Assembly: GCA_030650525.1 (NCBI GenBank)
Contig: JAUSDQ010000300.1
Span: 1 to 36,248 of the forward strand
Length of the DNA: 36,248 nucleotides
Source: Sulfuricaulis sp.
GTDB lineage: Bacteria > Pseudomonadota > Gammaproteobacteria > Acidiferrobacterales > Sulfurifustaceae
Direction of reading: 5' to 3'
Part shown: in pieces, positions 6,987 through 36,248 of the stretch
How positions within the stretch are numbered: the stretch's first letter is position 1
How the letters are laid out: every line of letters begins with the position of its first letter
The notes under the pieces: model-generated
Database searches by the model: none
What the model saw: only the letters and a program-made list of their open reading frames with translations
Told to the model about the DNA's origin: nothing
Translations under genes and position numbers: made by a program

Positions 6987-7009
6987 TGAACAAGGAAGGA
7001 CCGAAGAAA

Positions 7010-9992: not shown

Positions 9993-10006
9993 TTCTGGAG
10001 CAGGAA

Positions 10007-17293: not shown

Positions 17294-17295
17294 CC

Positions 17296-19963: not shown

Positions 19964-19967
19964 CAGC

Positions 19968-21833
19968 GTGAGCAACCTCTGGAACATCAAGGAATATCCA
20001 ACTGATCCTCCGATCAAGACTCCGGGCGAGACCGTCACGGCGCTCTTCTGGAACGCCGTCAAGCAGCGCGGTTCCCGGGTCTGGTTGCGGGAAAAGAAAC
20101 TCGGCATCTGGGACACCTGGAGCCTTGATCGCGTGGCCGAGGCGGTGCGGGAAATCGGCAACGGTCTGCTGAGCCTCAACCTGGCGCCCCAGGAATTCGT
20201 TTCCATCCATTCCACCACCGTGGTCGAATGGGTGCTGGCGGATTTCGCGGTGCTCAGTTGCGGCGGGGTGGTGAGCGGCATCTACCCGACCGATGCGGCC
20301 AGCCAGGTGCATTACTTGTGCGAGGATTCGCGTACAACCCTGCTCTTCGTCGAGGACGATGAGCAATTGGACAAGGCCCTGGAAGTGCGCGCGCGCCTGC
20401 CATTGCTGCGCAAGATCATCGTTTTCGACATGAAGGGTCTGCGTGAACTCAATGATCCCATGGTGATCAGCCTCGCGGCCCTGCGCGAGCTCGGTCGCCA
20501 GTACGCGGCGGCTCATCCGGGCGCGCTGGATCAGCGCATCGCCGCGGCAAAGCCCGAGGACATGGCCTTGCTGGTCTATACCTCGGGCACCACGGGCCGG
20601 CCCAAGGGGGCGATGAGCAACCACGCCGGCCTGCTCGCCGGCATCCGCACCATGGACAAGGTGGCGCCCCAGGGCGAGGACGACGACCGCATGTGTTTTC
20701 TACCCCTGTGTCACATCGCGGAGAAAATAAACGGCCTGTACTTCGCTCTGTACACCGGCACCCGGCTCAACTTCGTCGAGCATCCGGAGACGGTGCCAGA
20801 GAACGTGCGGGAAATCTCGCCCAGCGCCATGTTCGCCGTGCCCCGCGTGTGGGAGAAGTTCTACTCTGGCATCATCATGTCCATCAAGGAAAGTACGCTG
20901 CTGCAGCAGAAGCTCTATGAGTGGGGGATAGGGGTGGGCCACGATGTCGCTGATCGCTTCCTCGACCATCGGCCGATCAGCAGCCTGCTCAAGTTCAAGT
21001 TCATGCTCGCGCGCTGGCTGGCTCTGAACAATGTGCGCAAGATGATCGGCATTCACAAGGCGCGCTGTCTGTACAGCTCGGCCGCGCCCATCTCCCCCTC
21101 GCTCATTCGCTGGTATTTCGCCCTGGGCATTCCCATGTTCGAAGGGTGGGGGCAGACCGAGTCCGGCGGGGTGGCGACACAGACCCGTCCTGGTCACGTC
21201 AAGCTCGGGACCATTGGCAAGGTCGTGCCTGGTATGGAGGTCAAGCTTGATCCGACCACCGGCGAGCTGTTGATTCGCGGCAAGTCCTTGTTCATGGGCT
21301 ACCTGAACATGCCGGAGAAGACCGCCGAGACCGTCGATAAGGATGGCTGGTTGCACACGGGTGACGTGGGTGTGATGGACGAGGAAGGCTATTTCAAGAT
21401 CACGGACCGGATGAAGGACATCATCATCACGGCCGGCGGCAAGAACATCACCCCCAGCGAGATCGAGAACGAGCTCAAGTTCTCGCCCTACATCACCGAT
21501 GCTGTGGTAATCGGCGACAAGCGCCGCTTCCTCTCCGCCATCATCATGATCGAGCAGGAGAACGTGGAGAAGTTTGCCCAGGACAACGATATTCCGTTCT
21601 CCAACTACGCCAGCCTGACCCACGCGCCGCAGGTGCAACAGCTCATCCAAGGCGAAATCGATTTGGTGAACAAGAAGTTTGCCCAGGTCGAGCAAATTAG
21701 AAAATTCTTCCTGCTTGAGACTCAGCTCACGGCCGAGGACGAAGAGCTGACACCGACCATGAAGCTTAAGCGCAAGCTCGTGAATGAGAAGTACGCCAGG
21801 CAGATTGACGCCATGTACGTTGAACAGGCTTAG
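19968..21833 (+). CDS. AMP-forming acyl/aryl-CoA synthetase (long-chain FAA1 type)
   Basis: An adenylate-forming ligase of 621 residues from GTG 19968 (SNLWNIKEYPTDPP), with GGAGA upstream. It activates a carboxylate to its CoA thioester via an acyl-adenylate. The P-loop is YTSGTTGRPKGAMSNH; the core GWGQTESGG, hinge TGDVGVMDEEGYFKITDRMKD and AGGKNITPSEIENE follow; the C-terminal Lys is in TPTMKLKRKLV. The long-chain class has the extra region seen here around DRFLDHRPISSLLKFKFM. Being the last gene of the importer operon, it probably activates the imported substrate. Substrate chain or ring type cannot be read from the sequence. After its TAG stop the same frame continues into an acyl-CoA dehydrogenase tail remnant. 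Confidence 0.9.
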   Translation: MSNLWNIKEYPTDPPIKTPGETVTALFWNAVKQRGSRVWLREKKLGIWDTWSLDRVAEAVREIGNGLLSLNLAPQEFVSIHSTTVVEWVLADFAVLSCGGVVSGIYPTDAASQVHYLCEDSRTTLLFVEDDEQLDKALEVRARLPLLRKIIVFDMKGLRELNDPMVISLAALRELGRQYAAAHPGALDQRIAAAKPEDMALLVYTSGTTGRPKGAMSNHAGLLAGIRTMDKVAPQGEDDDRMCFLPLCHIAEKINGLYFALYTGTRLNFVEHPETVPENVREISPSAMFAVPRVWEKFYSGIIMSIKESTLLQQKLYEWGIGVGHDVADRFLDHRPISSLLKFKFMLARWLALNNVRKMIGIHKARCLYSSAAPISPSLIRWYFALGIPMFEGWGQTESGGVATQTRPGHVKLGTIGKVVPGMEVKLDPTTGELLIRGKSLFMGYLNMPEKTAETVDKDGWLHTGDVGVMDEEGYFKITDRMKDIIITAGGKNITPSEIENELKFSPYITDAVVIGDKRRFLSAIIMIEQENVEKFAQDNDIPFSNYASLTHAPQVQQLIQGEIDLVNKKFAQVEQIRKFFLLETQLTAEDEELTPTMKLKRKLVNEKYARQIDAMYVEQA

Positions 21834-21840
21834 AGCCGGT

Positions 21841-22175
21841 TTGCGATCAAGTACCAGGGCATTCAGCATCCGCTCGCGGACTGCTGGATGCGCCCGCTGG
21901 CAGCGGAGACCATGATGTTCAAGGCCGCGGTGCTTCATGACGTCGGCAAGCCCTGTGGCCTGGAAGCGAACAGTACCAAGTATCTCGCGGGGGATGCCTT
22001 TTTCGAATCGGCGACGCGCGCGGTGCGCACGCACGGCGGTTTTGGTTGCGCCAAGGCGTTCCACGTCGAGCGCTATTTCCGCGAAGCCATCATCGGTCTG
22101 ATTGCGCCGGTGAGCCAACAACTCATGCTGTGCCACATTGCCGAGAAGGCATTGGGCTTGCCAAAATCGTATTGA
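21841..22175 (+). pseudogene. Acyl-CoA dehydrogenase, 3' tail remnant
   Basis: From about 21841 the sequence encodes YQGIQHPLADCWMRP, then a long match ending HIAEKALGLPKSY. It corresponds almost base for base to the last third of the intact gene at 23246-24406 (compare 24084-24406). Nothing of the N-terminal and middle domains precedes it; the ligase stop is 8 nt upstream. The frame is open and, after that single TAG, continuous with the ligase frame. The substitutions (for example Y to C, E to A and H to Q in the last third) suggest drift after duplication. It is probably a non-functional leftover of a second [dehydrogenase-SDR] module. Confidence 0.85.
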
Positions 22176-22243
22176 TTCAACCTGATCATGCAGGTCAGGG
22201 GCGCCAAGTTGCCCCGGGACGCATAAGGCAACAAGGAGAAGAC

Positions 22244-23032
22244 ATGCAGCGATTGACGGGCCGAAGGGCAATCATCACCGGTGGCGGAAGCGGCATCGGA
22301 CGGGCCAGCGCGCTGCGCTTGGCCAGCGAAGGAGCGCAGGTCCTGGTGGTCGGGCGCACCGTATCCAAGCTCGACGAAACCGTGGACCTGGTGCGCGCCG
22401 CAGGCGGCAGCGCCATTGCCATGGCAGCGGATGCCGGGGTCGAAGCCAACGTCGAGGCGATGATCGCCCGCTGCGTTTCGGAGCTTGGCGGCATGGAGAT
22501 TTTTTTTGCCAATGCCATGTCGGGGATCGGTAACGTATCGGTGTTCGAGCAAACGGTCGAGCAGTGGCAGGAAGTAGCGCGAGTCAATCTGATCGGCACC
22601 TTCCTCGTTGGCAAGCACGCGGGGCGCTACATGCGCGACCAAGGCGCCGGTTCGATCATCTTCACTTCCACCGTCGCGGCCTTGCGCGCCAACGCGGGCG
22701 GCGACGCGGCCTACAGCGCCACCAAGGCCGGCATCAACAACTTCGTTTGTACGCTTGCCAACGAGCTTGCCGGCAGCGGTGTGCGAGTCAATGCCGTCAT
22801 GCCCGGCATCACCGAGACGGACGCGATGAAGCCGCTCTTCGATGCCATGCGCCGGCGCGGCACCGAGCACCTGCTTGGTCAGTTCGCGCCGATGCGCCGC
22901 GCCGCGCAGCCAGAGGAGATCGCCGCAGTCGTGGCCTTCCTCGCCAGCGACGACGCCTCCTATGTGGACGGCCAGTCCATCGCCGTTGATGGCGGCTATT
23001 CGAGCACCCACGCCTTCGCTCGACGTGGGTGA
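22244..23032 (+). CDS. Short-chain dehydrogenase/reductase (SDR)
   Basis: A classical SDR of 262 residues from ATG 22244, with AAGGAGA upstream. The cofactor motif is TGGGSGIG, the catalytic segment has the Ser in IFTSTVAA and Y-S-A-T-K, and the C-terminal YVDGQSIAVDGGYSS is typical of FabG-like enzymes. FANAMSG replaces the usual NNAG. The likely reaction is oxidation of a 3-hydroxyacyl-CoA or ring alcohol with NAD(P). It directly follows the acyl-CoA dehydrogenase tail remnant, mirroring the intact dehydrogenase-SDR pair at 23246-25308. Confidence 0.9.
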   Translation: MQRLTGRRAIITGGGSGIGRASALRLASEGAQVLVVGRTVSKLDETVDLVRAAGGSAIAMAADAGVEANVEAMIARCVSELGGMEIFFANAMSGIGNVSVFEQTVEQWQEVARVNLIGTFLVGKHAGRYMRDQGAGSIIFTSTVAALRANAGGDAAYSATKAGINNFVCTLANELAGSGVRVNAVMPGITETDAMKPLFDAMRRRGTEHLLGQFAPMRRAAQPEEIAAVVAFLASDDASYVDGQSIAVDGGYSSTHAFARRG

Positions 23033-23068
23033 TAGCGACCGATTCGGCCACGATCCCGCGTCCGTGAT

Positions 23069-23087
23069 TGTCCTTTCGGACGATGAC
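23069..23087 (+). promoter_or_regulatory. Shared operator-like motif, site for the 23246 gene
   Basis: TGTCCTTTCGGACGATGAC. Here the core is a perfect short dyad, GTCC-TTTC-GGAC. It lies about 160 nt before ATG 23246, further away than the other sites. Role inferred from recurrence. Confidence 0.5.
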
Positions 23088-23245
23088 GTTCGGCAACTAA
23101 CATGAAAAGATTCACGACGACCGGGCGGGGTCGCCGGCATGGCCGGGGTTTCACCCTGCAACGCGTCATCGGCTTGGCCGATCCACTGCCATGAAGACAA
23201 GAGCGTGACCTAATCCGTCCGCGCTCAAACTGGAGAACCCGGAAA

Positions 23246-24406
23246 ATGAATTTTTCACTCAGTGACGAGCAGCAAGCGATCGAGGACGCGATCGGCGCCA
23301 TTTGCGACAAGTTCGACGACAACTTCTGGTTGAAGGCAGACAACGAGAAGAAATTTCCCTACGAATTTTCCGATGCACTGGTTCAATCCGGCTGGATGGG
23401 CGTGACCATTCCGGAGGAATATGGGGGGGCCGGCCTGGGCATCACCGAGGCGTCCATCATTCTCAAGCGCATCGGGCGCCTGGGGCTCGCCGCCGTGTCA
23501 TCGGTGCATATCAACCTGTTCGGCCCCCACCCGGTGGTGGTTTTCGGCACGCCGGAACAGAAGGCGCGCATGCTGCCGCCGCTGATCGCGGGCAAGGATC
23601 GCACCTCCTTTGGCGTGACAGAACCGAACGTGGGGCTCGACACCCTGCGCATCAAGACCTTCGCCGTTCGAAAAGGCGACCGCTATATTGTCAATGGTCA
23701 GAAGGTGTGGAACTCGACGGCGCAAATCGCCAACAAGATCCTGCTCATCACCCGCACCACCAAGTACGAGGACGCGGCGAGACCGACCGACGGGCTGACC
23801 TTGTTCTACACCGACTTCGATCGCAGCAAGATTGCGGTGCGTGAAATCGCAAAGATGGGGCGCCATGCGGTTGACTCGAATGAAATTTTCATTGACAACC
23901 TAGAGATCCCGGTCGAGGACCGGATCGGCGAGGAAGGGCAGGGCTTCAAGTATTTGCTGCATGGCCTGAACCCCGAACGCATCGTCAGCGCCGCCAGCCT
24001 AGTCGGCGGTGGCCAGGCGGTCATCGACAAGGCTGCCAAATACGCTTGCGAGCGCATCGTTTTCGACCGTCCCATCGGCAAGAACCAGGGCATTCAGCAT
24101 CCGTTGGCGGACTGCTGGATGCGCCTGCAGGCGGCCGAGACCATGATGTTCAAGGCTGCAGCGCTCTACGATGCCGGCAAACCCTGCGGGCTGGAAGCCA
24201 ACACCGCCAAGTATCTCGCGGGGGACGCTTTTTTCGAATCGGCGACGCGCGCGGTGCGCACACACGGCGGTTTTGGTTACGCCAAGGAGTTCCACGTCGA
24301 GCGCTATTACCGCGAAGCCATCCTGGGTCTGATTGCGCCGGTGAGCCACGAACTCATACTGTGCCACATCGCCGAGAAGGCACTGGGCTTGCCCAAGTCG
24401 TATTGA
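23246..24406 (+). CDS. Acyl-CoA dehydrogenase
   Basis: An acyl-CoA dehydrogenase of 386 residues, normal family length, with GGAGAACCCGGAAA before ATG 23246. It has EEYGGAGLGITE, TSFGVTEPNVGLDTL, NGQKVWNSTA, and THGGFGYAKEFHVERYYRE. Glu244 in GLNPERIVSA sits on helix G, where isovaleryl- and long-chain-type enzymes keep their catalytic base; the C-terminal E-G position of medium-chain enzymes is not Glu here. Electrons would go to ETF. It is followed at 98 nt by an SDR. Two degraded copies of its 3' end occur at 21841 and 26851. The substrate is unknown. Confidence 0.92.
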   Translation: MNFSLSDEQQAIEDAIGAICDKFDDNFWLKADNEKKFPYEFSDALVQSGWMGVTIPEEYGGAGLGITEASIILKRIGRLGLAAVSSVHINLFGPHPVVVFGTPEQKARMLPPLIAGKDRTSFGVTEPNVGLDTLRIKTFAVRKGDRYIVNGQKVWNSTAQIANKILLITRTTKYEDAARPTDGLTLFYTDFDRSKIAVREIAKMGRHAVDSNEIFIDNLEIPVEDRIGEEGQGFKYLLHGLNPERIVSAASLVGGGQAVIDKAAKYACERIVFDRPIGKNQGIQHPLADCWMRLQAAETMMFKAAALYDAGKPCGLEANTAKYLAGDAFFESATRAVRTHGGFGYAKEFHVERYYREAILGLIAPVSHELILCHIAEKALGLPKSY

Positions 24407-24504
24407 ATTGGCCTTTGTCATGAAGGTCAGGCCGGCGAGGTCAAATCGACGGTAGCGCTGAAATTCGTCGAACCAATATCCGGCGCGGCTTCGACTAATA
24501 AGGA

Positions 24505-25308
24505 ATGCAGAATGCGACTACCATGACCCATCAAACCGTATCTTCACTACCGGTGGATATGACCGGAGTGCGCGTGATCATCAGTGCCGGCGCGGCCGGT
24601 ATCGGTCGCGCGATGGCGGACGCTTTCGCGGCACGGGGCGGGAAGGTCTATGTATGCGACATTGACCCGAAGGCCATCGCCGAGTGTGGTCATGCAGGAA
24701 TTGTGGCCGACATGGGCCGTGTCGAGGATGTCGACAGATTCATGGACGCAGCGCTGACTGCGCTCGGTGGTGTCGATGTCCTTATCAACAACGCCGGCAT
24801 CGCCGGCCCGGTTGCCCCCATCGAGCGCATTCAACCGGCGGAACTTGACGCGGTCCTGAACGTCAATCTGGCCAGCCAATTCCATTGTGCCCGGAGCGCG
24901 GTTCCCGCGCTTCGCCAATCGGGGCGCGGCTGCGTCATCAACATCAGCTCTGCAGCCGGCAAGTTCGGCTTCAGTCAGCGCACCTCCTATTCGGCAACAA
25001 AATGGGGCGTTATCGGTCTAACGAGGTCGCTCGCGATCGAGCTGGGCCCAGACAAGGTCCGCGTCAATGCGATTCTCCCCGGCTTCGTGGAAGGACCGCG
25101 CGCGCGCGCCGTGATGGAAGCCAAGGCCCAGGAGGCAGGCGTCAGCGCGGAGACCTTTATGGCGCAGGCGCTGTCGAGGTTCAGCCTGCGCTGCACCGTG
25201 TCCGCGCAAGACATCTCGAACATGGCGCTGTATCTGGCGAGTCCGTTTGGCGCAACGATTACCGGGCAGGCGATCAGCGTCGATGCCGGAATGGAAAGCA
25301 TGACTTAG
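24505..25308 (+). CDS. Short-chain dehydrogenase/reductase (SDR)
   Basis: An SDR of 267 residues. ATG 24505 abuts the AAGGA sequence, so the in-frame ATG 24523 (MTHQTVSS) may be the true start. The cofactor motif reads SAGAAGIG, with Ser for the usual Thr. NNAGIAGPVAPIE, INISSAAGKFGFS and Y-S-A-T-K-W supply the structural and catalytic Asn/Ser/Tyr/Lys. The end ITGQAISVDAGMESMT is typical. Asp in YVCDIDPKAIAE after the second strand favours NAD over NADP. The likely role is oxidation of a hydroxyacyl-CoA or alcohol intermediate following the dehydrogenase upstream. Confidence 0.9.
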   Translation: MQNATTMTHQTVSSLPVDMTGVRVIISAGAAGIGRAMADAFAARGGKVYVCDIDPKAIAECGHAGIVADMGRVEDVDRFMDAALTALGGVDVLINNAGIAGPVAPIERIQPAELDAVLNVNLASQFHCARSAVPALRQSGRGCVINISSAAGKFGFSQRTSYSATKWGVIGLTRSLAIELGPDKVRVNAILPGFVEGPRARAVMEAKAQEAGVSAETFMAQALSRFSLRCTVSAQDISNMALYLASPFGATITGQAISVDAGMESMT

Positions 25309-25368
25309 GCTCGACGCGAGCTTTCATCAAGGCGCAAAGTCATATTCCATCAGCAGAAAGGAACTGAA

Positions 25369-26283
25369 ATGAAACTCGCTATCGGCTTTATTGGACTGGG
25401 GGACATAGGAGCTCCCATGGCCACCCGCATCCTGATGGGGGGATTCGACCTTGTGGTTTGGAACCGGACGGCCTCGAAGATGGATCCCCTGGTTGCGGCG
25501 GGCGCAACCGTGGCGCGGTCGGCCGCTGATCTGGCCCGCCGCTGTGACATCGTTTGCCTTTGTGTCGACAGTCCGCAGGCGATTGAGGAGATCGTTTTCG
25601 GGCTCGACGGGGTGGTTGCAGGCGCCGGCCGGGCCAGGCTTCTGCTCGATAATTCCACGACACATCCGCAGCGTACGCGGGAAATGGCGCAACGACTGAA
25701 AGAGATGACAAGCATGGCTTGGCTTGATGTACCCGTGTCCGGAGGGCCGGTCGGCGCAAGAGCGGGTACCTTGGCGGCGATGGCGGGGGGCGATGCCGCC
25801 GACCTCGATTTTGCACGCCCGATCATCATGTCCTATGCCAACCGCGTCACCCTGATGGGTTCAGTTGGATGTGGTCAGGCGACCAAGGCGTGCAACCAGG
25901 TGATCAACTTTGGCACCATCGCGGCCCTCGCCGAGGCACTGACGCTCGGCGAGCGATATGGGCTGGATGTCAGCAGACTTCCAGAAGCGCTTTCTGGGGG
26001 CTTTGCCGACTCCAACATCATGAAAGAATATGACAGATGTGTCACGAATAACGACTTCACTGGCATTGGGCTGCTGGTGCGAGCCCTGGGAATGTTGTAC
26101 CAAGGTGATATTCACCCCGCGCTGGGCGGGAAGCTTGGCTTGCTCATGAAAGATATTGGGATTGCACTTGAACTCGGGCACCACACCAGCAGTGCGATGC
26201 CGTTGATGGGGCTGCTCGACGCCCAGTTCCGAGTGATCCACAACCACAAACCCGTTCGCACCGAGCCTGATTCCCGGCCTTAG
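25369..26283 (+). CDS. 3-hydroxyisobutyrate dehydrogenase-like (beta-hydroxyacid dehydrogenase)
   Basis: A protein of 304 residues, normal for the family. The N-terminal Rossmann motif is GFIGLGDIGAPMA, the substrate loop DVPVSGGPVGARAGTL, and the catalytic Lys lies in GCGQATKACNQ (G-x-x-x-K-x-x-x-N). AAGGAACTGAA precedes ATG 25369. Enzymes of this family oxidise 3-hydroxyacids or reduce semialdehydes with NAD(P). In this setting it may handle a free hydroxy acid or semialdehyde from ring-derived chains; no stronger assignment is possible. It is 60 nt after the SDR, in the same direction. Confidence 0.9.
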   Translation: MKLAIGFIGLGDIGAPMATRILMGGFDLVVWNRTASKMDPLVAAGATVARSAADLARRCDIVCLCVDSPQAIEEIVFGLDGVVAGAGRARLLLDNSTTHPQRTREMAQRLKEMTSMAWLDVPVSGGPVGARAGTLAAMAGGDAADLDFARPIIMSYANRVTLMGSVGCGQATKACNQVINFGTIAALAEALTLGERYGLDVSRLPEALSGGFADSNIMKEYDRCVTNNDFTGIGLLVRALGMLYQGDIHPALGGKLGLLMKDIGIALELGHHTSSAMPLMGLLDAQFRVIHNHKPVRTEPDSRP

Positions 26284-26454
26284 AAGAGAGCCCAAATGGT
26301 TAGACCGCGTCAGCAGCTTCTTGTCGTGAACAGTTTGCCGGGCAATTGCGCTACCGGATTCCATGCAGTCGATCCGGAAGCAGTTATGAACGGATGGCGC
26401 TGGCCATCGTAGGCTTACTGCGTTCATGAAAAAAATCATGTCGGAAGGGGCAAA

Positions 26455-26826
26455 GTGAATATCAGGAATGAGAACAAAATTGTCGCGGCCATCCAGAGCG
26501 AGTGGGCATCGGCGTTCAGACGCGGGGATTTTCAGGCTTTATGCCTTCTCTATGCGCCCGAGGCGCAGTTGTTCGGTGGCAAGCCAGATTTGTACGCCGG
26601 TGCCAACCGAGTGCGTGACTATTTTGCGGCCGTACCGGCAGGGGTTAAAGTTGTCTTTGACGACACCAATGTTGTACTCGCGTCGCCCACCACGATCCTC
26701 GCGGCAGGGTTTGCTACCTTTAGCCTTGGTGACCAGCAAGGCGTCCACCGGTTGAGTTGGACGCTGCTCGACAACGGTGCGCGCTGGGTGATTGCGAGCC
26801 ATCATGCGTCTGAGACTCCAGCGTGA
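26455..26826 (+). CDS. NTF2-like/SnoaL-like protein
   Basis: A protein of 123 residues starting with GTG 26455, 5 nt after GGAAGGGG. AAIQSEWASAFRRGDFQALCLLYAPEAQLFGG and the later WTLLDNGARWVIASHHAS are the pattern of cone-shaped NTF2 folds (SnoaL/DUF4440 type). Family members include ketosteroid isomerases, dehydratases and ligand-binding proteins; catalytic residues are not conserved enough to choose. It stands 171 nt behind the hydroxyacid dehydrogenase; that gap shows nothing else. Confidence 0.8.
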   Translation: MNIRNENKIVAAIQSEWASAFRRGDFQALCLLYAPEAQLFGGKPDLYAGANRVRDYFAAVPAGVKVVFDDTNVVLASPTTILAAGFATFSLGDQQGVHRLSWTLLDNGARWVIASHHASETPA

Positions 26827-26850
26827 GCGCCGAACATCGTATGGGTGGCA

Positions 26851-26925
26851 GGTCTGATTGGGGCGGTGAACCAAAAACTCATCCTGTGCCACCTCGCCGG
26901 GAAATGCCTCGGCCTTCCAAAATGG
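26851..26925 (+). pseudogene. Second acyl-CoA dehydrogenase 3' tail remnant, short
   Basis: GGTCTGATTGGGGCGGTGAA onward reads GLIGAVNQKLILCHLAGKC and ends LGLPKW. It corresponds to the last 25 residues of the dehydrogenase at 23246 (GLIAPVSHELILCHIAEK..LGLPKSY). The stop codon is lost and nothing upstream is homologous. It is more diverged than the remnant at 21841, so it marks an older duplication or rearrangement. Confidence 0.7.
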
Positions 26926-26930
26926 AAACA

Positions 26931-26949
26931 TGTCGCTTTGGACGCTGAC
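26931..26949 (+). promoter_or_regulatory. Shared operator-like motif, site for the 27013 operon
   Basis: TGTCGCTTTGGACGCTGAC; the first 13 bases are identical to the site before bzdN. It begins 82 nt before ATG 27013, close to the 85-nt spacing at both binding-protein genes. ATCCAAAAT at 26965 may be an opposing half-site. Role inferred. Confidence 0.55.
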
Positions 26950-27012
26950 GGGCGGTCGCGGGTGATCCAAAATAATTTTTGAACTGCAATTTTTCAACGT
27001 ATAGGAGTCAGT

Positions 27013-28284
27013 ATGGCTTGGGATTTTGAAACGGACCCGGAATTTCAAAAACAGTTGGATTGGGTCGAGCAATTTGTCAAGCTCGAAGTCGAGCCGCTGG
27101 AACATGTGCTGGGCAGCCCTTGGGACATCCACGATCCGCGCTTCGAAAAGCTGGTGCGGCCGTTGCAACGCGAAGTCAAGGCGCGCAAGCTGTGGGCCTG
27201 CCACCTGGGGCCGCATCTGGGGGGGCAGGGATATGGACAGAGCAAGCTGGCCTTGCTCAATGAAATCCTGGGCGGCGCGCATTTCGCGCCCATCGTATTC
27301 GGTTGCCAGGCGCCCGATACCGGCAATGCGGAGATCCTGGCTCATTACGGCACGCCCGAGCAGAAAAAGCGTTATCTCGAACCACTGCTCAATAATGAGA
27401 TTGTGTCGTGCTTTGCGATGACGGAGCCGCAAGGCGGAGCGGACCCCAAGGTGTTTACCACCCGGGCCGTGCAAGACGGCAAGGACTGGGTGATCAGCGG
27501 CGAGAAGTGGTTTGCATCCAATGCGCGCTATGCCGAGTTCTACATCGTCATGGCGGTGACCGACCCCGAGGCCAAGCCCTACCATCGCATGTCGATGTTT
27601 GTTGTTCCGGCCCAGACCAAGGGCATCAAGATCATCCGCAACGTGGGTCTGGCCGACGAGCCGGTTCCCGTGCATGGCTACCTTGAGTTCGATCAGGTGC
27701 GTGTTCCCGCCGAAAACATGCTTGGCAAGCAGGGCGAGGCATTTGCGGTGGCGCAGACCCGTCTGGGCGGGGGGCGGGTGCATCACGCGATGCGCACCAT
27801 AGGACAGGCGCGCAAGGCGTTTGACATGTTGTGCCAACGCGCCCTGTCTCGCACCACTCAGGGCGAACTGCTGTCGGCCAAGCAAATGGTCCAGGAAAAG
27901 ATCACGGATTCTTGGCTCCAGCTGGAACAGTTCAGGCTGATCGTGCTGCGCACGGCGTGGCGCATTGATAAATACAACGACTACATGAAAGTTCGCAAGG
28001 ATATTTCCGCCGTCAAGGTGCTGATGCCGAAGGTGCTTCATGATATCGCCACGCGGGCACTGGAAGTGCATGGCTCCCTGGGTGTCTCGATGGAGATGCC
28101 GTTCATGGACCAGATCGTCCTGTCGCACCACATGGGGCTCGCCGATGGGCCAACCGAGGTTCACAAGGTGACGGTTGCCAAGCAAATTTTGCGTGACTAC
28201 CAGCCCGCCAAGGGCATGTTCCCCGACTACCATCGGCCGGCCCTGGTCGAGGCTGCGCGCAAAAAGTATGAAGGTTTGATTTGA
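27013..28284 (+). CDS. Acyl-CoA dehydrogenase (ACAD10/11- or CaiA-like)
   Basis: A protein of 423 residues with AGGAG before ATG 27013. It is a paralogue of the dehydrogenase at 138-1406. It has GCQAPDTGNAEIL, CFAMTEPQGGADPKVFTT, SGEKWFASNA, GGGRVHHAMRTIGQARKAFD and the C-terminal ADGPTEVHKVTVAK. Asp stands in the D-G-P motif where medium-chain enzymes have the catalytic Glu. The two long paralogues differ enough that they should act on different acyl-CoAs. It forms an operon with the oxidoreductase that starts one base after its stop. Confidence 0.9.
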   Translation: MAWDFETDPEFQKQLDWVEQFVKLEVEPLEHVLGSPWDIHDPRFEKLVRPLQREVKARKLWACHLGPHLGGQGYGQSKLALLNEILGGAHFAPIVFGCQAPDTGNAEILAHYGTPEQKKRYLEPLLNNEIVSCFAMTEPQGGADPKVFTTRAVQDGKDWVISGEKWFASNARYAEFYIVMAVTDPEAKPYHRMSMFVVPAQTKGIKIIRNVGLADEPVPVHGYLEFDQVRVPAENMLGKQGEAFAVAQTRLGGGRVHHAMRTIGQARKAFDMLCQRALSRTTQGELLSAKQMVQEKITDSWLQLEQFRLIVLRTAWRIDKYNDYMKVRKDISAVKVLMPKVLHDIATRALEVHGSLGVSMEMPFMDQIVLSHHMGLADGPTEVHKVTVAKQILRDYQPAKGMFPDYHRPALVEAARKKYEGLI

Positions 28285-28285
28285 C

Positions 28286-29308
28286 ATGAAAGCCGCGGTA
28301 CTTGAAAAGCGCGGGGCCGAGGGCCTGCGCGTCCGTGATTTTCCCAAGCCACAACGCCAGCCCGGTGAGGCCCTGATGCGAATCCGGGCAGCGGGTGTCA
28401 ATCGGGTTGACTTGTATATGCGCGACAACGGCGTCGGCATTACCCATCAACTGCCCTTGATTCTGGGCGTGGAAGGCGCGGGAGAGATCGTCGAGGCCGA
28501 TCCCGACAGTGGCTTGAAGCCAGGCATGAAAGCGGTGACGTACACGCAGTTCTGCGGCCGTTGCCGTTACTGCCTGGCCGGCGAGCAGCCCCTGTGTGAG
28601 AGCCTGCGCATCGCGGGCGAGCACCGGCACGGCTTTTTCGCTGAATACATTTCGCTGCCAACGCGGTGCTTCATCCCCTTGCCCGACACAACCGACCTGG
28701 TCGAAGTCGCCGCACTGCCGAGCGCCTATCTGACGGCGTGGCGCATGCTGTTTGGCAAGCGCCAGCTGCGTCCTGACGAAACGGTTCTGATCGTGGGCAT
28801 TGGCAGCGGTGTGGCGGTGGCCTGCCTGCAGCTCGCGCGCATTGCCGGTGCCCGCGCCATCGTGACGTCCTCGAGTGACGAAAAGATCCGGCGCGCGCTG
28901 GAACTGGGGGCAAGCCATGGCATCAACTACCGAACCGAACCGGTGTCCAAGTCCGTTCTGGCGCTCACCGACGGCAAGGGCGTTGACATGGTCATCGACA
29001 GCGTGGGCGAGGCGAGTTGGGGTGAATCCCTGCGTTCCCTGCGGCGTGGCGGGCGCCTCGTGACCTGCGGCGCGACCACCGGCTCCAATCCGCCCGCCGA
29101 CCTGCAGCGCGTGTTTATCCGCCAGCTTGAAATCTACGGCTCCACCGGGGGCAATCTTGCTGAATTCAGGGAACTCATCGGCCTGTACAGCAGCGGCAAA
29201 CTGCGCCCGGTCATCGACCGGCGTTATGCGCTCGATGACATTGATTCGGCCTTCGGCCGCCTGCAACGGGGCGAGCAGTTTGGCAAGCTGCTCATCACTA
29301 TCGAGTAG
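28286..29308 (+). CDS. Zinc-type MDR alcohol dehydrogenase/quinone reductase-like
   Basis: A medium-chain dehydrogenase/reductase of 340 residues. The structural zinc lobe CGRCRYCLAGEQPLC is complete. The catalytic-zinc site is altered: VNRVDLYMRDNG lacks the first-ligand Cys of alcohol dehydrogenases, so it may be an enoyl- or quinone-type reductase without catalytic zinc. The nucleotide motif is VGIGSGVAVACLQLA. The start lies one base after the acyl-CoA dehydrogenase stop. The gene ends the plus-strand run and converges on the minus-strand alcohol dehydrogenase. Substrate unknown. Confidence 0.88.
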   Translation: MKAAVLEKRGAEGLRVRDFPKPQRQPGEALMRIRAAGVNRVDLYMRDNGVGITHQLPLILGVEGAGEIVEADPDSGLKPGMKAVTYTQFCGRCRYCLAGEQPLCESLRIAGEHRHGFFAEYISLPTRCFIPLPDTTDLVEVAALPSAYLTAWRMLFGKRQLRPDETVLIVGIGSGVAVACLQLARIAGARAIVTSSSDEKIRRALELGASHGINYRTEPVSKSVLALTDGKGVDMVIDSVGEASWGESLRSLRRGGRLVTCGATTGSNPPADLQRVFIRQLEIYGSTGGNLAEFRELIGLYSSGKLRPVIDRRYALDDIDSAFGRLQRGEQFGKLLITIE

Positions 29309-29516
29309 GAAATCGGTGTCACTCCGTCCTCGCACGAAGCAAATTCAGTGAATCTGGGGTGAATGCTTTGGACACTGTCGCACTGATCTCGAATCCGAGG
29401 GCGGCGGAGCGCCTGGTTGGTCTCAATGGCATGGCCTGAGTCGATGCGCAGCGTTTCCTCGATTCCACCGGCACACGCGCGGGCATCTTGAAAGCCGAAT
29501 TCTCCATGCATATGGG

Positions 29517-29538
29517 CCACGGGCTTCACTGCCCGTGG
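29517..29538. terminator. Hairpin between convergent genes
   Basis: CCACGGGC, loop TTCACT, GCCCGTGG: a perfect 8-bp GC-rich stem. It lies 209 nt after the plus-strand stop at 29308 and 60 nt after the minus-strand stop at 29598. It has no clear U-tract on either side, so a bidirectional terminator is plausible but not certain. The remaining sequence 29309-29516 shows no gene. Confidence 0.45.
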
Positions 29539-29597
29539 ATCAGATCATGACAATGTTTGTAACCTGATGGTCCTGAGTCTCGTGCACTGATTCCGTT

Positions 29598-30650
29598 TCA
29601 GCGCGTGGGGTCGAGCACGACCTTCACCATGCCATCCTTGCGTGCGTTGAACATGGCGTAGGCTTCGCTCCCCTCGGACAGCCCCATGCGATGCGTGATG
29701 ATCTCCGACAGCGCGCGCGAATTCAGCCGTCCGCTTTCGATCTCTCGCATCAGGACCGGCAGCTCCGCCTGCACCGAACAAACGCCAGTGTGAAACTCCA
29801 GGTTTTTCCTGAGTGCGGTCAGGATGGGAAACGCAATGCTCACTTTTTCGCTGACGCCGAGGACTGAAACCCGTCCGCCGCGGCCGACCAATTCGATGGC
29901 CAGCGCCGTCGTCACGGGTCCGCCATTGGCGTCCAGCACGACGTCCACACCAGCGCCCTTTGTTGCTTCCAGCACGGCGGCGGCCACATCGGGCGCGTCG
30001 ATGGACTCGGCGCCGAGTTTCACCGCGAGTGCGCGGCGATCGGCGAGCAGGTCAATGGCCAGCACGCGCGCGGCGCCCATCGCCAGCGCGGAGGCGACGC
30101 ACTGCAGGCCGACCGCCCCCAGCCCGATCACCGCCACGACGTCGCCGGGGCCTACCCTGGCGCGCCGTGCGCCATACCAAGCGGTTGCCAGGTTGTCGGT
30201 CAGCATGATGCCGACCTCGTCCGACACGCCGTCCGCAAGACGATAGAGATTGCTGTCGGCCACCGGAACCGCAATTGCCTCAGCCTGGCAGCCGCCAATA
30301 CCGGGTACGCCCTGACCAAACACCCGGTGGCTCCCGTGGGTCTGGCACAGCACGACATTGCCCTGTCGGCAGGGCAGGCAAAGGCCACAGCCCAATGAAG
30401 CGGGCACCAATACGCGGTCGCCCACGGCGAAGGTCTTCACATTGCGACCCACCTCGATCACCTCGCCGACCGCCTCATGACCGATGCAGTAGCCGGAATG
30501 CCCCAGGTCCAGGTGATAGGGGTGCAAATCGCTGCCGCAGATTGAACACAAGGTGGTCTTGACGATCGCCCCGTCCTGATCAGAAAGGATTGGATCCTGC
30601 ACACTTTCGCATTGAATATTTCCCGGGCCACCATAGATCAAAGCTCGCAT
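29598..30650 (-). CDS. Zinc-dependent alcohol dehydrogenase (MDR family)
   Basis: A protein of 350 residues from ATG 30650. Catalytic zinc ligands are visible in CSICGSDLHPYH and IGHEAVGEV, the structural zinc lobe in CGLCLPCRQGNVVLC, and the NAD motif in VIGLGAVGLQCVAS, with Asp in LAIDLLADRR favouring NAD. It resembles threonine/sorbitol-type or glutathione-independent dehydrogenases. An oxidation of a hydroxylated ring or chain intermediate fits the setting; 6-hydroxycyclohexenoyl-CoA dehydrogenase belongs to the same superfamily, but I see no specific sign of it. It follows the second binding-protein gene on the minus strand with 189 nt between. Confidence 0.9.
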   Translation of the reverse strand: MRALIYGGPGNIQCESVQDPILSDQDGAIVKTTLCSICGSDLHPYHLDLGHSGYCIGHEAVGEVIEVGRNVKTFAVGDRVLVPASLGCGLCLPCRQGNVVLCQTHGSHRVFGQGVPGIGGCQAEAIAVPVADSNLYRLADGVSDEVGIMLTDNLATAWYGARRARVGPGDVVAVIGLGAVGLQCVASALAMGAARVLAIDLLADRRALAVKLGAESIDAPDVAAAVLEATKGAGVDVVLDANGGPVTTALAIELVGRGGRVSVLGVSEKVSIAFPILTALRKNLEFHTGVCSVQAELPVLMREIESGRLNSRALSEIITHRMGLSEGSEAYAMFNARKDGMVKVVLDPTR

Positions 30651-30721
30651 GACAATTTCCTATTCATTATGTTTTCGATGTTCATGAGCCAGCACGCCTA
30701 TCCATGGCATTGGCCGGCTCG

Positions 30722-30753
30722 GATACTTGAACCTCCGCGGCGTTTCAAGTATC
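30722..30753. repeat. Perfect 10-bp inverted repeat between binding-protein and ADH genes
   Basis: GATACTTGAA (30722-30731) and TTCAAGTATC (30744-30753) flank a 12-nt GC-rich loop. It lies in the 189-nt gap, about 72 nt upstream of the alcohol dehydrogenase start. It could be an intercistronic hairpin that protects or terminates the upstream message, or an operator. No U-tract follows. Confidence 0.45.
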
Positions 30754-30839
30754 GACTCAATTCGATGGCGCGAGGACCGATGCTTGCTTGGCAAGCCGAG
30801 ATCAACTGGACAGGCCCTGGTGCGGGCATGGCTTCGGAC

Positions 30840-32039
30840 TTAGTAAGTCACTGGACCGGTCACGGGCACGAACTTGCCACCTTTGACCTGCATGATGATG
30901 GTGCTGCGCGGCGGGGCGTGATTATCGGCTGCATAGGAAATCGGCGGGCCTTCAAACACGGTTTTGAACTCCTTGACCTTCTCCAGCCCCTGGGCCAGGG
31001 TCTGCGGCGTCAGATTGCGACCGGCGTTCTTCGCGCCTTCGGCGAACAGCATGACGTCGGTGTAGCCGAGCGCAACGCCATCCTCGGGGTCGCGGCCGAA
31101 CTGTGCCTTGAAACGGTCGTGCGTGGCACGTAGCGCCGGCGTCATCTCCTGGGCCGAATGAAGGAACTGGAAGGTGATATACAGGCCTTCAACCGACGGC
31201 CCGCCAAGTTTGATCAAGGCGTTGCTCGATGCCCCCTGGCCGGCGAACATGTCCACGTTCAGGCCTTGCTTTCTTGCTTCGGCAATGGGGCCGACCGTGT
31301 CGCGGGGACCGGCGGTTCCCAGCAGCACGGCATCGACATTGGCCGCCTTCAAGCGCGCCATCTGTGACGCGAATTCAGTTTCGCCACGCTTGTACGTGGT
31401 GACTTCCACCGGCGCCAAACCGTGCGTTTTGAGCTGTGCATTGGCCGCCCGCAGAAAGGCCTGGCCGTTTTCATCGTCCTGATACAGCACGCCAAAGCGG
31501 CGCTTGCCGAGCTTTTCATACGCGAATTTCACCTCGGCCCGCGTTTGGTCGCTATACAAGGTGATGATGCCGAACTTGAGCGGGCTCAGCGGCAGGAACA
31601 TGGCCTCCGAAGGACCTGACGCAAAAAGAAACGGTATGCCGCGCTCGATGGCCAGCGGCATGGAGGCCATGGAAGTGGGCGTGCCCAGTGTGCCGACCAT
31701 GGCGAATACCTTGTCCAGGGTCAGCAGCTTTTGCGTCGCCAGCACTGCCTTTTTCGGATCGTATCCGCTGTCCTCGACCAGCATGCGAACCTTGCGGCCG
31801 TGGATGCCGCCCGCGGCATTGATGTCATTGACCGCGAACAACATGCCGTCGCGTATCGGCGCGCCTATCGCGGCAATCGGGCCGCTCAAGTCGACGTGCG
31901 AGCCGATCACGATTTCGGTGTCGGTGATGCCCTGAACCGTTTGTGCCAGCGCCGAGCCAGCGGTCAAGGCCACGGCCCCCGCCGCTAGAAACCAACGCAA
32001 CTTCGTGGAAATGCGCTGGAGCCGTGGATGACAATACAT
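30840..32039 (-). CDS. ABC transporter substrate-binding protein, second copy (LivK/HAAT family)
   Basis: A periplasmic protein of 399 residues, paralogous to the one at 14898. The signal peptide (LRWFLAAGAVALTAGSALA) is identical at the protein level; over 99 bases there (31914-32012 versus 14925-15023) I count seven differences. The mature proteins diverge in the ligand lobes, for example FASGPSEAMFLPLSP against FPAAASDSGYLPFHP, so the ligand may differ. No permease or ATPase genes accompany it, so it probably shares the importer encoded at 16415-19963. Its promoter carries the shared motif at the same 85-nt distance. It is divergent from the ligase gene at 32341. Confidence 0.92.
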   Translation of the reverse strand: MYCHPRLQRISTKLRWFLAAGAVALTAGSALAQTVQGITDTEIVIGSHVDLSGPIAAIGAPIRDGMLFAVNDINAAGGIHGRKVRMLVEDSGYDPKKAVLATQKLLTLDKVFAMVGTLGTPTSMASMPLAIERGIPFLFASGPSEAMFLPLSPLKFGIITLYSDQTRAEVKFAYEKLGKRRFGVLYQDDENGQAFLRAANAQLKTHGLAPVEVTTYKRGETEFASQMARLKAANVDAVLLGTAGPRDTVGPIAEARKQGLNVDMFAGQGASSNALIKLGGPSVEGLYITFQFLHSAQEMTPALRATHDRFKAQFGRDPEDGVALGYTDVMLFAEGAKNAGRNLTPQTLAQGLEKVKEFKTVFEGPPISYAADNHAPPRSTIIMQVKGGKFVPVTGPVTY

Positions 32040-32105
32040 CGTGCTTTTCCCTTATGAGTTTGGATAAACTGTTGCCGTCTCAGTTTGTATGAGGGCCTCG
32101 CGCCG

Positions 32106-32124
32106 CGTATCGTCCGAACTGACA
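32106..32124 (-). promoter_or_regulatory. Shared operator-like motif, site for the second binding protein
   Basis: On the minus strand TGTCAGTTCGGACGATACG, preceded by AAC. It starts 85 nt before ATG 32039, the same distance as at 14813. Downstream bases (CGGC..GAGGCC..CATAC) also resemble the other binding-protein promoter. Role inferred. Confidence 0.6.
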
Positions 32125-32340
32125 GTTGCATCCCTGGTATTTACCCTAGGTTTTCACGCGGTTTGGCAGGCATGGTCGCAGCAAGGCGAAGTTTGATCGC
32201 CCGCTGCTGACCGATGAATTGTCCATTGCGACGACCCCGAGGGTGCATGCTTGCGGCGATACTCGCCACTGCGAGGCCAAGCCGACATGGTTTGATCGAT
32301 TGCCCCGCGCTTCACGACGACTCAAGACAGAGGAGACGAC
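32125..32340. other. Divergent intergenic region, right part
   Basis: Between the shared motif and the ligase start I see no gene and no clear repeat. A good ribosome-binding site GAGGAGA lies at about 32330-32336 for the ligase. A promoter for the ligase should be here, but no convincing -35/-10 pair stands out. Confidence 0.4.
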
Positions 32341-33894
32341 ATGCCCGACCAGATGTTCTGCGGCGTTCCCGACCTGATCCGCGCGCAGGCTGGGCAGAGA
32401 CCCGCGCATCCGGCCTTGGTGCTCGATGAGCGCAGCCTCGACTACGCCTGCCTGGACGCACTGATGGACAGGGTGGCGGCCTCACTGCAACGCGATGGGC
32501 TGGTGCCGGGGGATGTGATCGCCATCAGCGCCGCGACCTCGGTCGAATACGTCCTGGTGTTCCTCGGCAGTGTGCGCGCCGGCGTCGTCGTCGCGCCGCT
32601 GGCGCCTGACTTGTCGGCGCAGGGGCTGGCGGCGCTGCTGGCCAATGCTGGGGCAAAAATGTTCTTTCTCAGCCAAGCCGTGGCCAGGTCCGTCGCTCCG
32701 GTGGCGGAAAAAATCACGGCCCGGCGGATCGCCATCGACGATTCGGACGCCGGGAGCATTTTCTCCGACTGGCTTGCTCCGCCCGGTACCTTGCCGATGG
32801 CAGTGACCGTGCAGCCGGACTGGCCGTTCAACATCATCTATTCCTCCGGCACCACCGGTACGCCCAAAGGTATCCTGCATTCCCATGCGCTGCGCCGTTC
32901 CAATGTCGACTTGTGCACGACGCTCGGCTTCGGCCCGGACACCGTGAGTCTGATCACGATCCCGCTTTACTCCAACACTACCCTGACGAATGTCCTGCCC
33001 ACGCTGGCGCTGGGCGGCACGGTCGTGCTGATGGGCAAGTTCGATGTCGCTGTTTTTCTTGCGCTGTCCGAGAAACATCGCGTCACCCACACCATGCTGG
33101 TGCCGGTCCAGTACCAGAGAATCATGGCGCATCCGGATTTCGAGCGCTTTGACCTTTCGTCCTGTCGCCTGAAATTCAGCGGCGGCGCGCCGTTCTCGGC
33201 GGGGCTCAAGGCCGACGTCCTGAAGCGCTGGCCAGGCGGCTTGGTCGAAGCGTATGGCATGTCCGAGGGCGGCGGCATCTGCCTGCTGGATGCCCGCTTG
33301 TTTGCGGACAAGCTGCACACCGTGGGCCGGCCTGCGCCGGGGCACGACATGCGCTTGATCGACGAAGCGGGCCGTGAACTGGGTCCGTCCGAGACGGGCG
33401 AAGTCGTCGGCCACTCGGCGACGATGATGAGCGGCTACCACAATCTGCCGGCCCAGAGCGCCGAAGCGCAGTGGTTTGACGCGCAGGGCAAGCGCTATAT
33501 CCGCAGTGGCGATATTGGTCGTTTCGACGAGGACGGTTTTTTGATCCTGGTCGACCGAAAGAAGGACATGATCATCTCGGGTGGCTTCAACATCTATCCC
33601 AGCGATCTGGAGGCGGTGCTGCGCGAACATGCCGAGGTTGCCGACGTTGCCGTGGTGGGCATGCCGTCGCAGCGCTGGGGCGAAACGCCGCTGGCCTTTG
33701 TTGTCTTGCGGCCCGGCGCCGCGACGGCGGCCGAGGCCCTGCTCGCCTGGGCCAATGGCCAGCTGGGCAAGGTGCAACGCCTCGCGGCCGTGGAGATTTT
33801 TGACAGTCTGCCGCGCAGCGATGTCGGAAAGGTGTTGAAGCGCGAACTGCGCGAGGCCTATCAGGCGGCAGGCAAGGCCGATGCAGGCTGCTAG
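32341..33894 (+). CDS. AMP-forming acyl/aryl-CoA ligase
   Basis: An adenylate-forming ligase of 517 residues, the length of the 4-coumarate/cyclohexane-carboxylate/short-acyl ligase group and shorter than the FAA1-type enzyme at 19968. The P-loop is YSSGTTGTPKGILHSH, then EAYGMSEGGG, RSGDIGRFDEDGFLILVDRKKD (hinge), SGGFNIYPSDLE and the adenylation Lys in RSDVGKVLKREL. It probably activates a second carboxylate of the pathway, or the same ring acid under other conditions. It is followed by a 63-nt spacer and the MDR-molybdopterin frame. Confidence 0.9.
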   Translation: MPDQMFCGVPDLIRAQAGQRPAHPALVLDERSLDYACLDALMDRVAASLQRDGLVPGDVIAISAATSVEYVLVFLGSVRAGVVVAPLAPDLSAQGLAALLANAGAKMFFLSQAVARSVAPVAEKITARRIAIDDSDAGSIFSDWLAPPGTLPMAVTVQPDWPFNIIYSSGTTGTPKGILHSHALRRSNVDLCTTLGFGPDTVSLITIPLYSNTTLTNVLPTLALGGTVVLMGKFDVAVFLALSEKHRVTHTMLVPVQYQRIMAHPDFERFDLSSCRLKFSGGAPFSAGLKADVLKRWPGGLVEAYGMSEGGGICLLDARLFADKLHTVGRPAPGHDMRLIDEAGRELGPSETGEVVGHSATMMSGYHNLPAQSAEAQWFDAQGKRYIRSGDIGRFDEDGFLILVDRKKDMIISGGFNIYPSDLEAVLREHAEVADVAVVGMPSQRWGETPLAFVVLRPGAATAAEALLAWANGQLGKVQRLAAVEIFDSLPRSDVGKVLKRELREAYQAAGKADAGC

Positions 33895-33957
33895 GCCATG
33901 AGCGCCACGACGCGGGCGACAGGCCGGAATTTCTAGATAACCATGGAGAAGCGAAGC

Positions 33958-36248
33958 ATGAAAGCAGTGGTGTGCAAGGCCTACGGGCCGCCTGAATCTC
34001 TGAGCCACGGGGAGTTTCCGATGCCAGTCGCTGGTGCCGGTCAAGTCCTGATCAAAGTCGCCGCCGCGGGCGTGAATTTTCTCGACACCCTGATCATCGA
34101 GGGCAAATACCAGGACCGGCCAGCCCTGCCTTTTGTGCCGGGCAGCGAAGCCGCCGGCGTGGTTGTCGAAGTGGGCGCCGGCGTGTCCGGTTTTGCCGTG
34201 GGCGATCGCGTGCTGGCGATGCAGGGCTGGAACGCCTACGCCGAATACATGGCGGTCAACGCCACCGGACAGGTGTTTCACCTGCCGGCGAGCATGGACT
34301 TCGTCACCGCCGCCGGCTTCGGCATCGCTTATTCGACCTCCCTCTATGGACTGCGCCAGAAGGCCCACCTCGCCGCCGGCGAGACCTTGCTGGTGCTCGC
34401 CGCGGGCAGCGGCGTCGGACTCACCGCCGTCGAACTCGGTGCCATGATGGGCGCGCGGGTGATCGCCGCCGCCAGCAGTTCCGAGAAATTGGAGCGGGCG
34501 CGACAGGCCGGGGCCAGCGAGACCATCAACTATCGCCAGGAATCGCTCAAGCCGCGCGTCATGGAGATCACCGGTGGCCGCGGGGTGGACGTCGTGTATG
34601 ACCCGGTTGGTGGCGATTTTTTCGACGCCGCCGTGCGCACCCTGGCCTGGAACGGCCGCCTCCTGGTGGTGGGCTTTGCCAGCGGACGCATCCCCGCACT
34701 GCCGGCGAACCTGCTGCTGCTTAAGGGTATTTCCGCCATCGGCGTGCTGGCCGGCGGATTCCAGAAGAACGAGCCCGAGTTGCAGCAGGCCAATCTGGAG
34801 GACCTGCTGCGCTGGTACGCCCAGGGCAAGTTGCATCCGCAGGTGTCGCGCACGGCGCCGCTGGCGCAGGCCGCGCAGATGCTGACGGCGATCGCGCGCG
34901 GCGAGGTCCAGGGCAAAGTGGTATTGACCTGTTCAGAGCCGATCCGGCCTGCTGTCATGGCGCCACTTGAGACGCAAACAATGAGTGACGCGAGCAAGCT
35001 GGCGCCCGGCGAAGACGGCAACCACATCACCCACTGCCGGCTCTGCGACGCCTATTGCGGTCTTGTGGCCACCGTCAAGAAAGGCCGCATCACCAAGGTG
35101 ATGCCCGACAAGGACAACGTCGTGTCCCGGGGATTCCTGTGTCCCAAGGGGCCTGCGATGGCGGCCATCGCGCACGATCCGGATCGGGTGCTTCATCCGC
35201 TCAAGCGCAGCGGCGCAGCGGGGGAATTCACGCGCGTGAGTTGGGACGAGGCCCTTGGCGACATCGCCCAGCGCCTGGGCGCGATTCACCAGGCCCAGGG
35301 TGGCGAGGCCATCGCGATGTACGTGGGCAACCCGGCGGCGGCCGCCACGTTCACCAATCACATCGCGGCGGGGCTGCTCAAGTCCCTGGGGTCGAGCCTG
35401 TATTACACGCCCGCCGCGGCCGATACCACCCAGCGCTGGGTGGCGACCGAAGCGGTCTACGGCCAGCCCGTGCTGCCCATCCCCGATCTGCCAAACTGCG
35501 ATTTTCTCCTGGTCATCGCCGCCAATCCGCTGGAGTCCCATGGCTCCCTGCTGACCTCGCCGCGCATCCGCGATGACATGGATGCGATCGCGGCCCGCGG
35601 CCGGGTGGTGGTGATCGATCCGCGCAAGACCAAGACTGCTGCGCGCTACGAGCATGTGCCCATCCTGCCGAACACCGACGTCTATCTGCTGATTGGCATG
35701 TTGCGCGTGCTGTTTGGCGAACATCTCGCTGACCAGGATTTCTTGCAGAACCATGTCAAGGGTTGGGAAATCCTCAGCGCCGCGTGCACCAGCTTCAGTG
35801 TCGAGCAATGCGCCCGGTTCTGCGGCATCGAGGTGCCGACGATACGGGGGCTGGCCAGGCGCCTGGCCGCGCCGAGAGCCGTCTGTTACAGCCGCATCGG
35901 CATTTGCCGCGCCAGCTTCGGCACGCTCACCAATGTGCTGGTTGAGGCCCTCAACATCGTCGCTGGCCGCTTCGGGCAGCCCGGCGGTTGGGGTTTCGGT
36001 TTCGACCCTTATGTGCCAGCTGGCGCAAGCCCGCGGCGCAGGCGTCCCACCTACGCACGCACGCGCAGCCGCAGCGGCGGCTTTCCCAGCATTGCCGGGA
36101 CGCTGCCCGCCACCGTCCTCGCCGACGACATCAGCCATGCGTCCGAGCACCCGATACGTGCCTTGATTGTTGTCGCGGGCAATCCGGCCCGCAGTTACCC
36201 GGAGGGTGACAAGCTGGAAGCGGCCTTGCAGACCCTGGATCTGCACGT
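33958..36248 (+). CDS. Fused MDR quinone-oxidoreductase and molybdopterin oxidoreductase (runs off window)
   Basis: One open frame from ATG 33958 (GGAGAAG upstream) to the window end, at least 763 codons with no stop. Residues 1-325 are a zinc-free MDR of the zeta-crystallin/quinone-reductase type: NFLDTLIIEGKYQ, VPGSEAAGVVVEVG, LAAGSGVGLTAVELG and a normal family end at VQGKVVLT. A linker of about 16 residues follows. From residue 342 (ATG 34981) begins a DMSO-reductase-family protein: C360-x2-C363-x3-C367-x27-C395 for a [4Fe-4S] cluster, GFLCPKGPA, WDEALGDIAQRLG and VVVIDPRKTKTA. At the usual molybdenum-ligand region (YTPAAADTTQRW) no Cys is present; an Asp is. Either a genuine fusion or two genes whose stop was lost. 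The molybdenum half may be a hydroxylase or dehydrogenase of pathway intermediates. It is incomplete here. Confidence 0.8.
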   Translation, partial: MKAVVCKAYGPPESLSHGEFPMPVAGAGQVLIKVAAAGVNFLDTLIIEGKYQDRPALPFVPGSEAAGVVVEVGAGVSGFAVGDRVLAMQGWNAYAEYMAVNATGQVFHLPASMDFVTAAGFGIAYSTSLYGLRQKAHLAAGETLLVLAAGSGVGLTAVELGAMMGARVIAAASSSEKLERARQAGASETINYRQESLKPRVMEITGGRGVDVVYDPVGGDFFDAAVRTLAWNGRLLVVGFASGRIPALPANLLLLKGISAIGVLAGGFQKNEPELQQANLEDLLRWYAQGKLHPQVSRTAPLAQAAQMLTAIARGEVQGKVVLTCSEPIRPAVMAPLETQTMSDASKLAPGEDGNHITHCRLCDAYCGLVATVKKGRITKVMPDKDNVVSRGFLCPKGPAMAAIAHDPDRVLHPLKRSGAAGEFTRVSWDEALGDIAQRLGAIHQAQGGEAIAMYVGNPAAAATFTNHIAAGLLKSLGSSLYYTPAAADTTQRWVATEAVYGQPVLPIPDLPNCDFLLVIAANPLESHGSLLTSPRIRDDMDAIAARGRVVVIDPRKTKTAARYEHVPILPNTDVYLLIGMLRVLFGEHLADQDFLQNHVKGWEILSAACTSFSVEQCARFCGIEVPTIRGLARRLAAPRAVCYSRIGICRASFGTLTNVLVEALNIVAGRFGQPGGWGFGFDPYVPAGASPRRRRPTYARTRSRSGGFPSIAGTLPATVLADDISHASEHPIRALIVVAGNPARSYPEGDKLEAALQTLDLH

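Follow-up and report, generated by a model that had tools for sequence, protein, structure and literature searches.

The open reading frame that runs off the 3′-end of the stretch of DNA analysed here (the window; 36,248 nucleotides, contig C211 of assembly G000) raises the question of whether a quinone-reductase-type MDR enzyme and a molybdopterin oxidoreductase are truly encoded as one protein and, if so, what the pairing signifies. Coordinates are window positions unless stated otherwise, and the proteins encoded by the window and by a second contig, C128, are referred to as P0001 and P0002, respectively. Frame reading showed that no stop interrupts the frame between 33958 and the end of the window, as the original prediction had claimed, with an alternative ATG at 33943 also in frame. 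ATG 33958 is the likely start codon as a GGAG stands 9 nt upstream of it, with ATG 33943 as the alternative, and the window copy lacks its 3′-end because contig C211 ends there. The locus includes the following features:

32341–33894, forward strand: AMP-forming acyl-CoA ligase gene, upstream of the fusion, 63 nt before ATG 33958
33943–36248, forward strand: fused frame, open from both ATG 33943 and ATG 33958, 3′ part cut by the contig end
33958–34932, forward strand: MDR/quinone-reductase-type domain, residues 1–325 of P0001 (PF08240, PF00107, PF13602; PDB match 4eye)
34933–34980, forward strand: linker, residues 326–341, no domain match, relaxed substitution between the two copies
34981–34983, forward strand: probable ancestral start codon of the Mo enzyme, ATG in the window and ACG in the C128 copy
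35026–36248, forward strand: DMSO-reductase-family catalytic part, Fe4S4 motif followed by the molybdopterin domain (PF04879, PF00384)

When the window protein was searched against Pfam, both domains expected of the quinone-reductase-type MDR superfamily were found above their cut-offs in the first half, the GroES-like ADH_N at residues 26–110 (PF08240; 67.9 bits) and the NAD(P)-binding ADH_zinc_N at residues 152–273 (PF00107; 101.2 bits). The top PDB sequence match was 4eye (E value 5.7e-57), and the best standalone MDR relatives shared up to 57% identity with this half. As most standalone relatives end at the equivalent of residues 325–332, the MDR half is full length, in agreement with the earlier claim of a complete enzyme to about residue 325. 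NADPH:quinone oxidoreductase-type MDR proteins (PIG3/QOR-like; 4eye, 4dup and 1qor) likewise have full-length ADH_N and ADH_zinc_N domains, whereas the MDR half examined here runs on into a second enzyme. With the model for PIG3-type NAD(P)H quinone oxidoreductase (TIGR02824), the MDR half scored below the curated cut-off (235.2 versus 296.8 bits).

The second half carries the features of the DMSO reductase (Mo/W-bis-pterin) family, namely the N-terminal [4Fe-4S] cysteine motif that most members have, PF00384 and PF01568. The Molybdop_Fe4S4 domain was found at residues 358–405 (PF04879; 42.3 bits against a cut-off of 22.7) with Cys360, Cys363, Cys367 and Cys395 of P0001 forming the motif that had been predicted to follow the linker, and the Molybdopterin domain (PF00384) was found in both copies, above its cut-off at residues 410–760 of P0001. 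The dinucleotide-binding domain Molydop_binding (PF01568) scored 54.3 bits in the complete C128 copy, and lies beyond the window end in C211. The formate dehydrogenase alpha model TIGR01591 gave 143.7 bits, scored on the incomplete window protein, against a curated cut-off of 666.25, and the Pfam domain search detected neither a flavin domain nor an extra Fe-S domain in either copy. The Mo half is taken to be cytoplasmic, as it is preceded by an MDR domain without an export signal.

The closest solved relatives of the Mo half are the thiosulfate/polysulfide reductase PsrA (2vpw) and FdhF formate dehydrogenases (7qv7 and 1aa6), which are without an MDR domain. The protein ligand to Mo in the DMSO reductase family can be Cys, Sec, Ser or Asp. 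The Mo ligand in PsrA and the FdhF enzymes is Cys or Sec, whereas the group to which the Mo half belongs has an Asp at or beside the matching ligand place. This residue, Asp489 in P0001 and Asp494 in P0002, is invariant in all 82 aligned proteins of the molybdoenzyme group (L045–L124), among which the Fe4S4 Cys motif is invariant or nearly so. One profile alignment placed it on the Cys of PsrA (2vpw), and another placed it at a distance of one residue from the ligand of FdhF; Asp489 is a candidate Mo ligand.

Assembly G000, which comprises 354 contigs totalling 3.76 Mb and has a completeness of 94.4 and a contamination of 5.8, was found to carry a second fused copy on contig C128 with 93% DNA identity to that in the window. 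This copy is complete, encoding 1074 aa counted from the alternative start, and ends in the dinucleotide-binding domain. The two contigs overlap between window 33552–36248 and C128 48234–50930, with the end of C128 at 50930 corresponding to window 33552 and the end of C211 at 36248 corresponding to C128 48234, and no further pairing at similar identity was found between window 16000–33957 and C128 36000–50399. As C211 and C128 meet only by their ends, the two copies probably represent the same locus in two strains, separated by a strain fork in the assembly.

The original prediction had left room for one lost base to have created the join, and an out-of-frame TGA at the end of the MDR part (34925–34927), present in both copies, would fit a single base having been lost or gained in sequencing or assembly. 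However, the separately assembled copies, which are 7% divergent, have the identical fusion frame and the same linker length, with no indel across the 2697 bases (~2.7 kb) of overlap. No frameshift was seen at the junction, where 22 of the 93 bases encoding residues 326–356 differ between the copies with no stop codon and no change of frame. As a sequencing error shared by two divergent contigs is implausible, an artefact was set aside, its chance being very small. As indels are also missing from the short intergenic interval 5′ of the fusion, their lack in the linker counts for less than the loss of the start codon and the lack of a stop. The dN/dS between the copies was 0.15 for the MDR part, 0.50 for the linker region and 0.13 for the Mo part, indicating purifying selection on both domains and relaxed constraint on the linker. 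The fusion of an MDR with a DMSO-reductase-family enzyme in one frame, as first proposed, is thus borne out by the domains and the 93% identical copy; the gene fusion almost certainly exists, and very likely a single chain is translated from it in the cell.

On C128, two unfused genes were found 3′ of the fusion (L008 7850–11224), first one for an MDR (342 aa) and then one for a molybdopterin oxidoreductase (747 aa), and this pair adjoins the fusion in the same order and on the same strand. If the two contigs represent two strains of one locus, four genes would share one strand, in the order acyl-CoA ligase, fusion, 342-aa MDR and 747-aa molybdopterin oxidoreductase. The tetranucleotide profiles of contigs C211, C128, C95 and C149 were mutually correlated at 0.98–0.99, compared with ~0.9 against the contig carrying rpoB (C332), and a 16S rRNA gene was not found in the bin. 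These four contigs may belong to a large island or to a second organism in a mixed bin, but as the piece carrying rpoB measures only 7.8 kb, the contrast is no more than a hint.

The linker was defined as residues 326–341 because MDR relatives stop before it and Mo relatives begin after it, the standalone Mo relatives starting near the equivalent of residue 342; its length of 16 residues is as originally predicted. It is probably a former intergenic spacer, though its substitution pattern would also fit a spacer free of constraint. The ATG at 34957 in the window copy is a GTG in the C128 copy, and no clear ribosome-binding site was found there or at ATG 34981, for which the same had been noted earlier.

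Other genes combining MDR and Mo parts were sought in 57 genomes of the order, a class sample of 369, a phylum sample of 398 and 390 genomes of the order of G217 (the samples partly overlap), and none was found. The 80 best loci from a species-level contig collection likewise gave none, nor did the plasmids and viral contigs searched, and a further search of a single genome yielded nothing more. As no other fused copy was present in any of these, the fusion appears, on present evidence, to be rare and lineage-specific. Separate genes in close relatives had been named as the observation that would speak against a fusion; all homologues found elsewhere are indeed separate, but none of them is close, and the one copy that is close (93%) is a fusion.

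The best relatives of the Mo half (L158, L045 and L043/L046) share 45–51% identity with it and are all standalone among the matches listed. Standalone, cytoplasmic molybdopterin-dependent oxidoreductases of ~700–750 aa, such as those of Solimonas terrae (L045), Novosphingobium sp. EMRT-2 (WP_168196155) and genome G930 (L158), match the Mo half with 45–51% identity over the whole Mo part, have the Fe4S4 motif and the invariant Asp in common with it, and are similar in N-terminus and length. In these, an MDR is neither fused nor, at the loci examined, adjacent, save for two divergent cases (L077 and L085, 2 of the 80 best loci) in which a divergent MDR gene is a neighbour. No conserved adjacency of MDR and Mo genes was seen around the homologues in Massilia, Novosphingobium, Sphingopyxis and G930. 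Relatives of the Mo half occur in Pseudomonadota, Actinomycetota and Deinococcus, and the searches made did not reveal a substrate for them. Long open frames 5′ of the Mo homologues L082, L122, L102 and L071 were read; they contain no MDR sequence and look spurious. The molybdoenzyme genes at L077, L081 and L085 are in public MAG records titled Bifidobacterium breve or Klebsiella pneumoniae, and these titles look doubtful.

No published report of an MDR-molybdopterin fusion was found in the open-access literature, which is weak evidence. A survey of molybdenum use across about 5900 genomes (PMC6147048) described new fusions in the DMSOR family, including those with GltD/COG0493 and with cbb3 subunit III. 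In these, a molybdoenzyme is likewise joined to another redox domain, but MDR/Qor is absent from Table 4 of that study. As far as could be searched, a single chain that unites these two known families of enzymes has not been reported before.

Besides the fusion, the window carries acyl-CoA ligase and acyl-CoA dehydrogenase genes, and the standalone Mo homologues have acyl-CoA dehydrogenase, thiolase-like and phosphotransferase genes as neighbours, these identities being partly assigned by eye. As bzd, ligase and dehydrogenase genes are present in the window and similar clusters surround standalone relatives, the best guess is that the substrate is an acyl-CoA or aromatic compound.

Genes for a bzd-type benzoyl-CoA reductase are located at window 4525–8745, with scores of 722 bits for bzdN, 707 bits for bzdO and 570 bits for bzdQ; an acyl-CoA dehydratase activase gene is among them, and bzdN was found within the order only in G000 and G019. 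A gene adjoining them (9857–12553) encodes a long Fe-S protein that matches GltD-type glutamate synthase small subunits and has a FeFe-hydrogenase/NuoG-like N-terminal region; this protein could be an electron source for the bzd enzymes.

These comparisons are best read as pointing to a bifunctional enzyme that is rare and lineage-specific and is encoded among genes of acyl-CoA/aromatic catabolism. Its gene would have formed when ~48 nt of spacer, with an MDR gene on the 5′ side and a molybdopterin oxidoreductase gene on the 3′ side, came to be read in frame, giving one cytoplasmic polypeptide of ~1070 residues in two co-assembled strains, with each half most likely keeping its own chemistry. 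The MDR half would use NAD(P)H for hydride transfer with a substrate that is a quinone or has an activated C=C. The Mo half would have a Mo-bis-pterin centre, probably with Asp as ligand, at which the substrate is oxidised, reduced or takes part in hydroxyl transfer, and would swap electrons with a soluble carrier via the one [4Fe-4S] cluster that it has. Two steps of a single acyl-CoA/aromatic catabolic route would thereby be tethered, at a fixed ratio of 1:1. A genuine fusion of probable read-through origin that tethers two steps in this way is moderately probable, and for the functional coupling of the halves as pathway steps the balance is even. Counting against this reading are that a third example of the fusion was not found, that the adjacency of MDR and Mo genes is not conserved in the relatives examined, and that ATG 34957, though it has no recognisable ribosome-binding site, is a possible internal start. 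An AlphaFold model of the window protein was fairly confident for the Mo half and had a pLDDT below 50 over most of the MDR half, probably as only two MDR rows were present in the alignment, and is uninformative on domain contact.

The same join could have arisen neutrally, with unrelated neighbouring enzymes connected by loss of a stop, each working alone and the connection having no functional meaning. The lack of conserved adjacency elsewhere and the short, relaxed linker are in keeping with this, as is an estimated chance of ~1/5 that a spacer of ~48 nt would be open in frame (1/3 for the frame multiplied by the probability that 16 codons are free of stops). However, the fusion has been kept in two strains at a dS of ~0.2 while one lost the internal ATG, and both halves are under purifying selection, which makes a neutral join possible but rather unlikely. 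It is improbable that one message gives two products, with internal initiation at 34957 or 34981 also or mainly making the Mo enzyme, or with the linker being cleaved. Although the window copy has an ATG at both positions and the first is kept as GTG in the C128 copy, the second has become ACG there, neither codon has a clear ribosome-binding site, and any ribosome on the MDR part would continue as no stop lies between the halves.

The direct NAD(P)H-molybdenum pairing suggested by the original prediction, taken here to mean that the MDR would feed NAD(P)H electrons into the [4Fe-4S]/Mo centre of a self-sufficient NAD(P)H-dependent molybdoenzyme, could draw on the physical joining of the two domains and on the fact that no gene for a separate electron-transfer subunit adjoins the fusion on C128. 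MDR reductases hand hydride directly to the bound substrate rather than passing single electrons, and MDR enzymes are not known to have a flavin or a metal relay. As neither a flavin domain nor a further Fe-S domain was found in the protein, internal electron transfer to Mo from NAD(P)H is highly unlikely; no hydride-to-electron converter is visible in the sequence and the pairing was not supported. The wider proposal, that a flavin-free MDR domain supplies the Mo centre of the same chain either directly or via shared substrate or quinone cycling between the sites, is also very doubtful. Two coupled pathway steps are more likely than internal NAD(P)H-to-Mo electron flow.

As fusions often show which enzymes share a step, the one found here would link an MDR with cytoplasmic Mo enzymes of a group that is little understood and in which the likely ligand position is invariantly Asp. 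The MDR half may be the first clue to the chemistry of this group, pointing to an activated double bond or quinone in acyl-CoA/aromatic breakdown, and, if the sites cooperate, the complete C128 copy would provide a single-gene handle on that chemistry.

Elsewhere in the window, two genes for ABC-transporter substrate-binding proteins (14898–16079 and 30840–32039) were found in opposite orientation with 74% DNA identity to one another, and several more distant copies are present on other G000 contigs.
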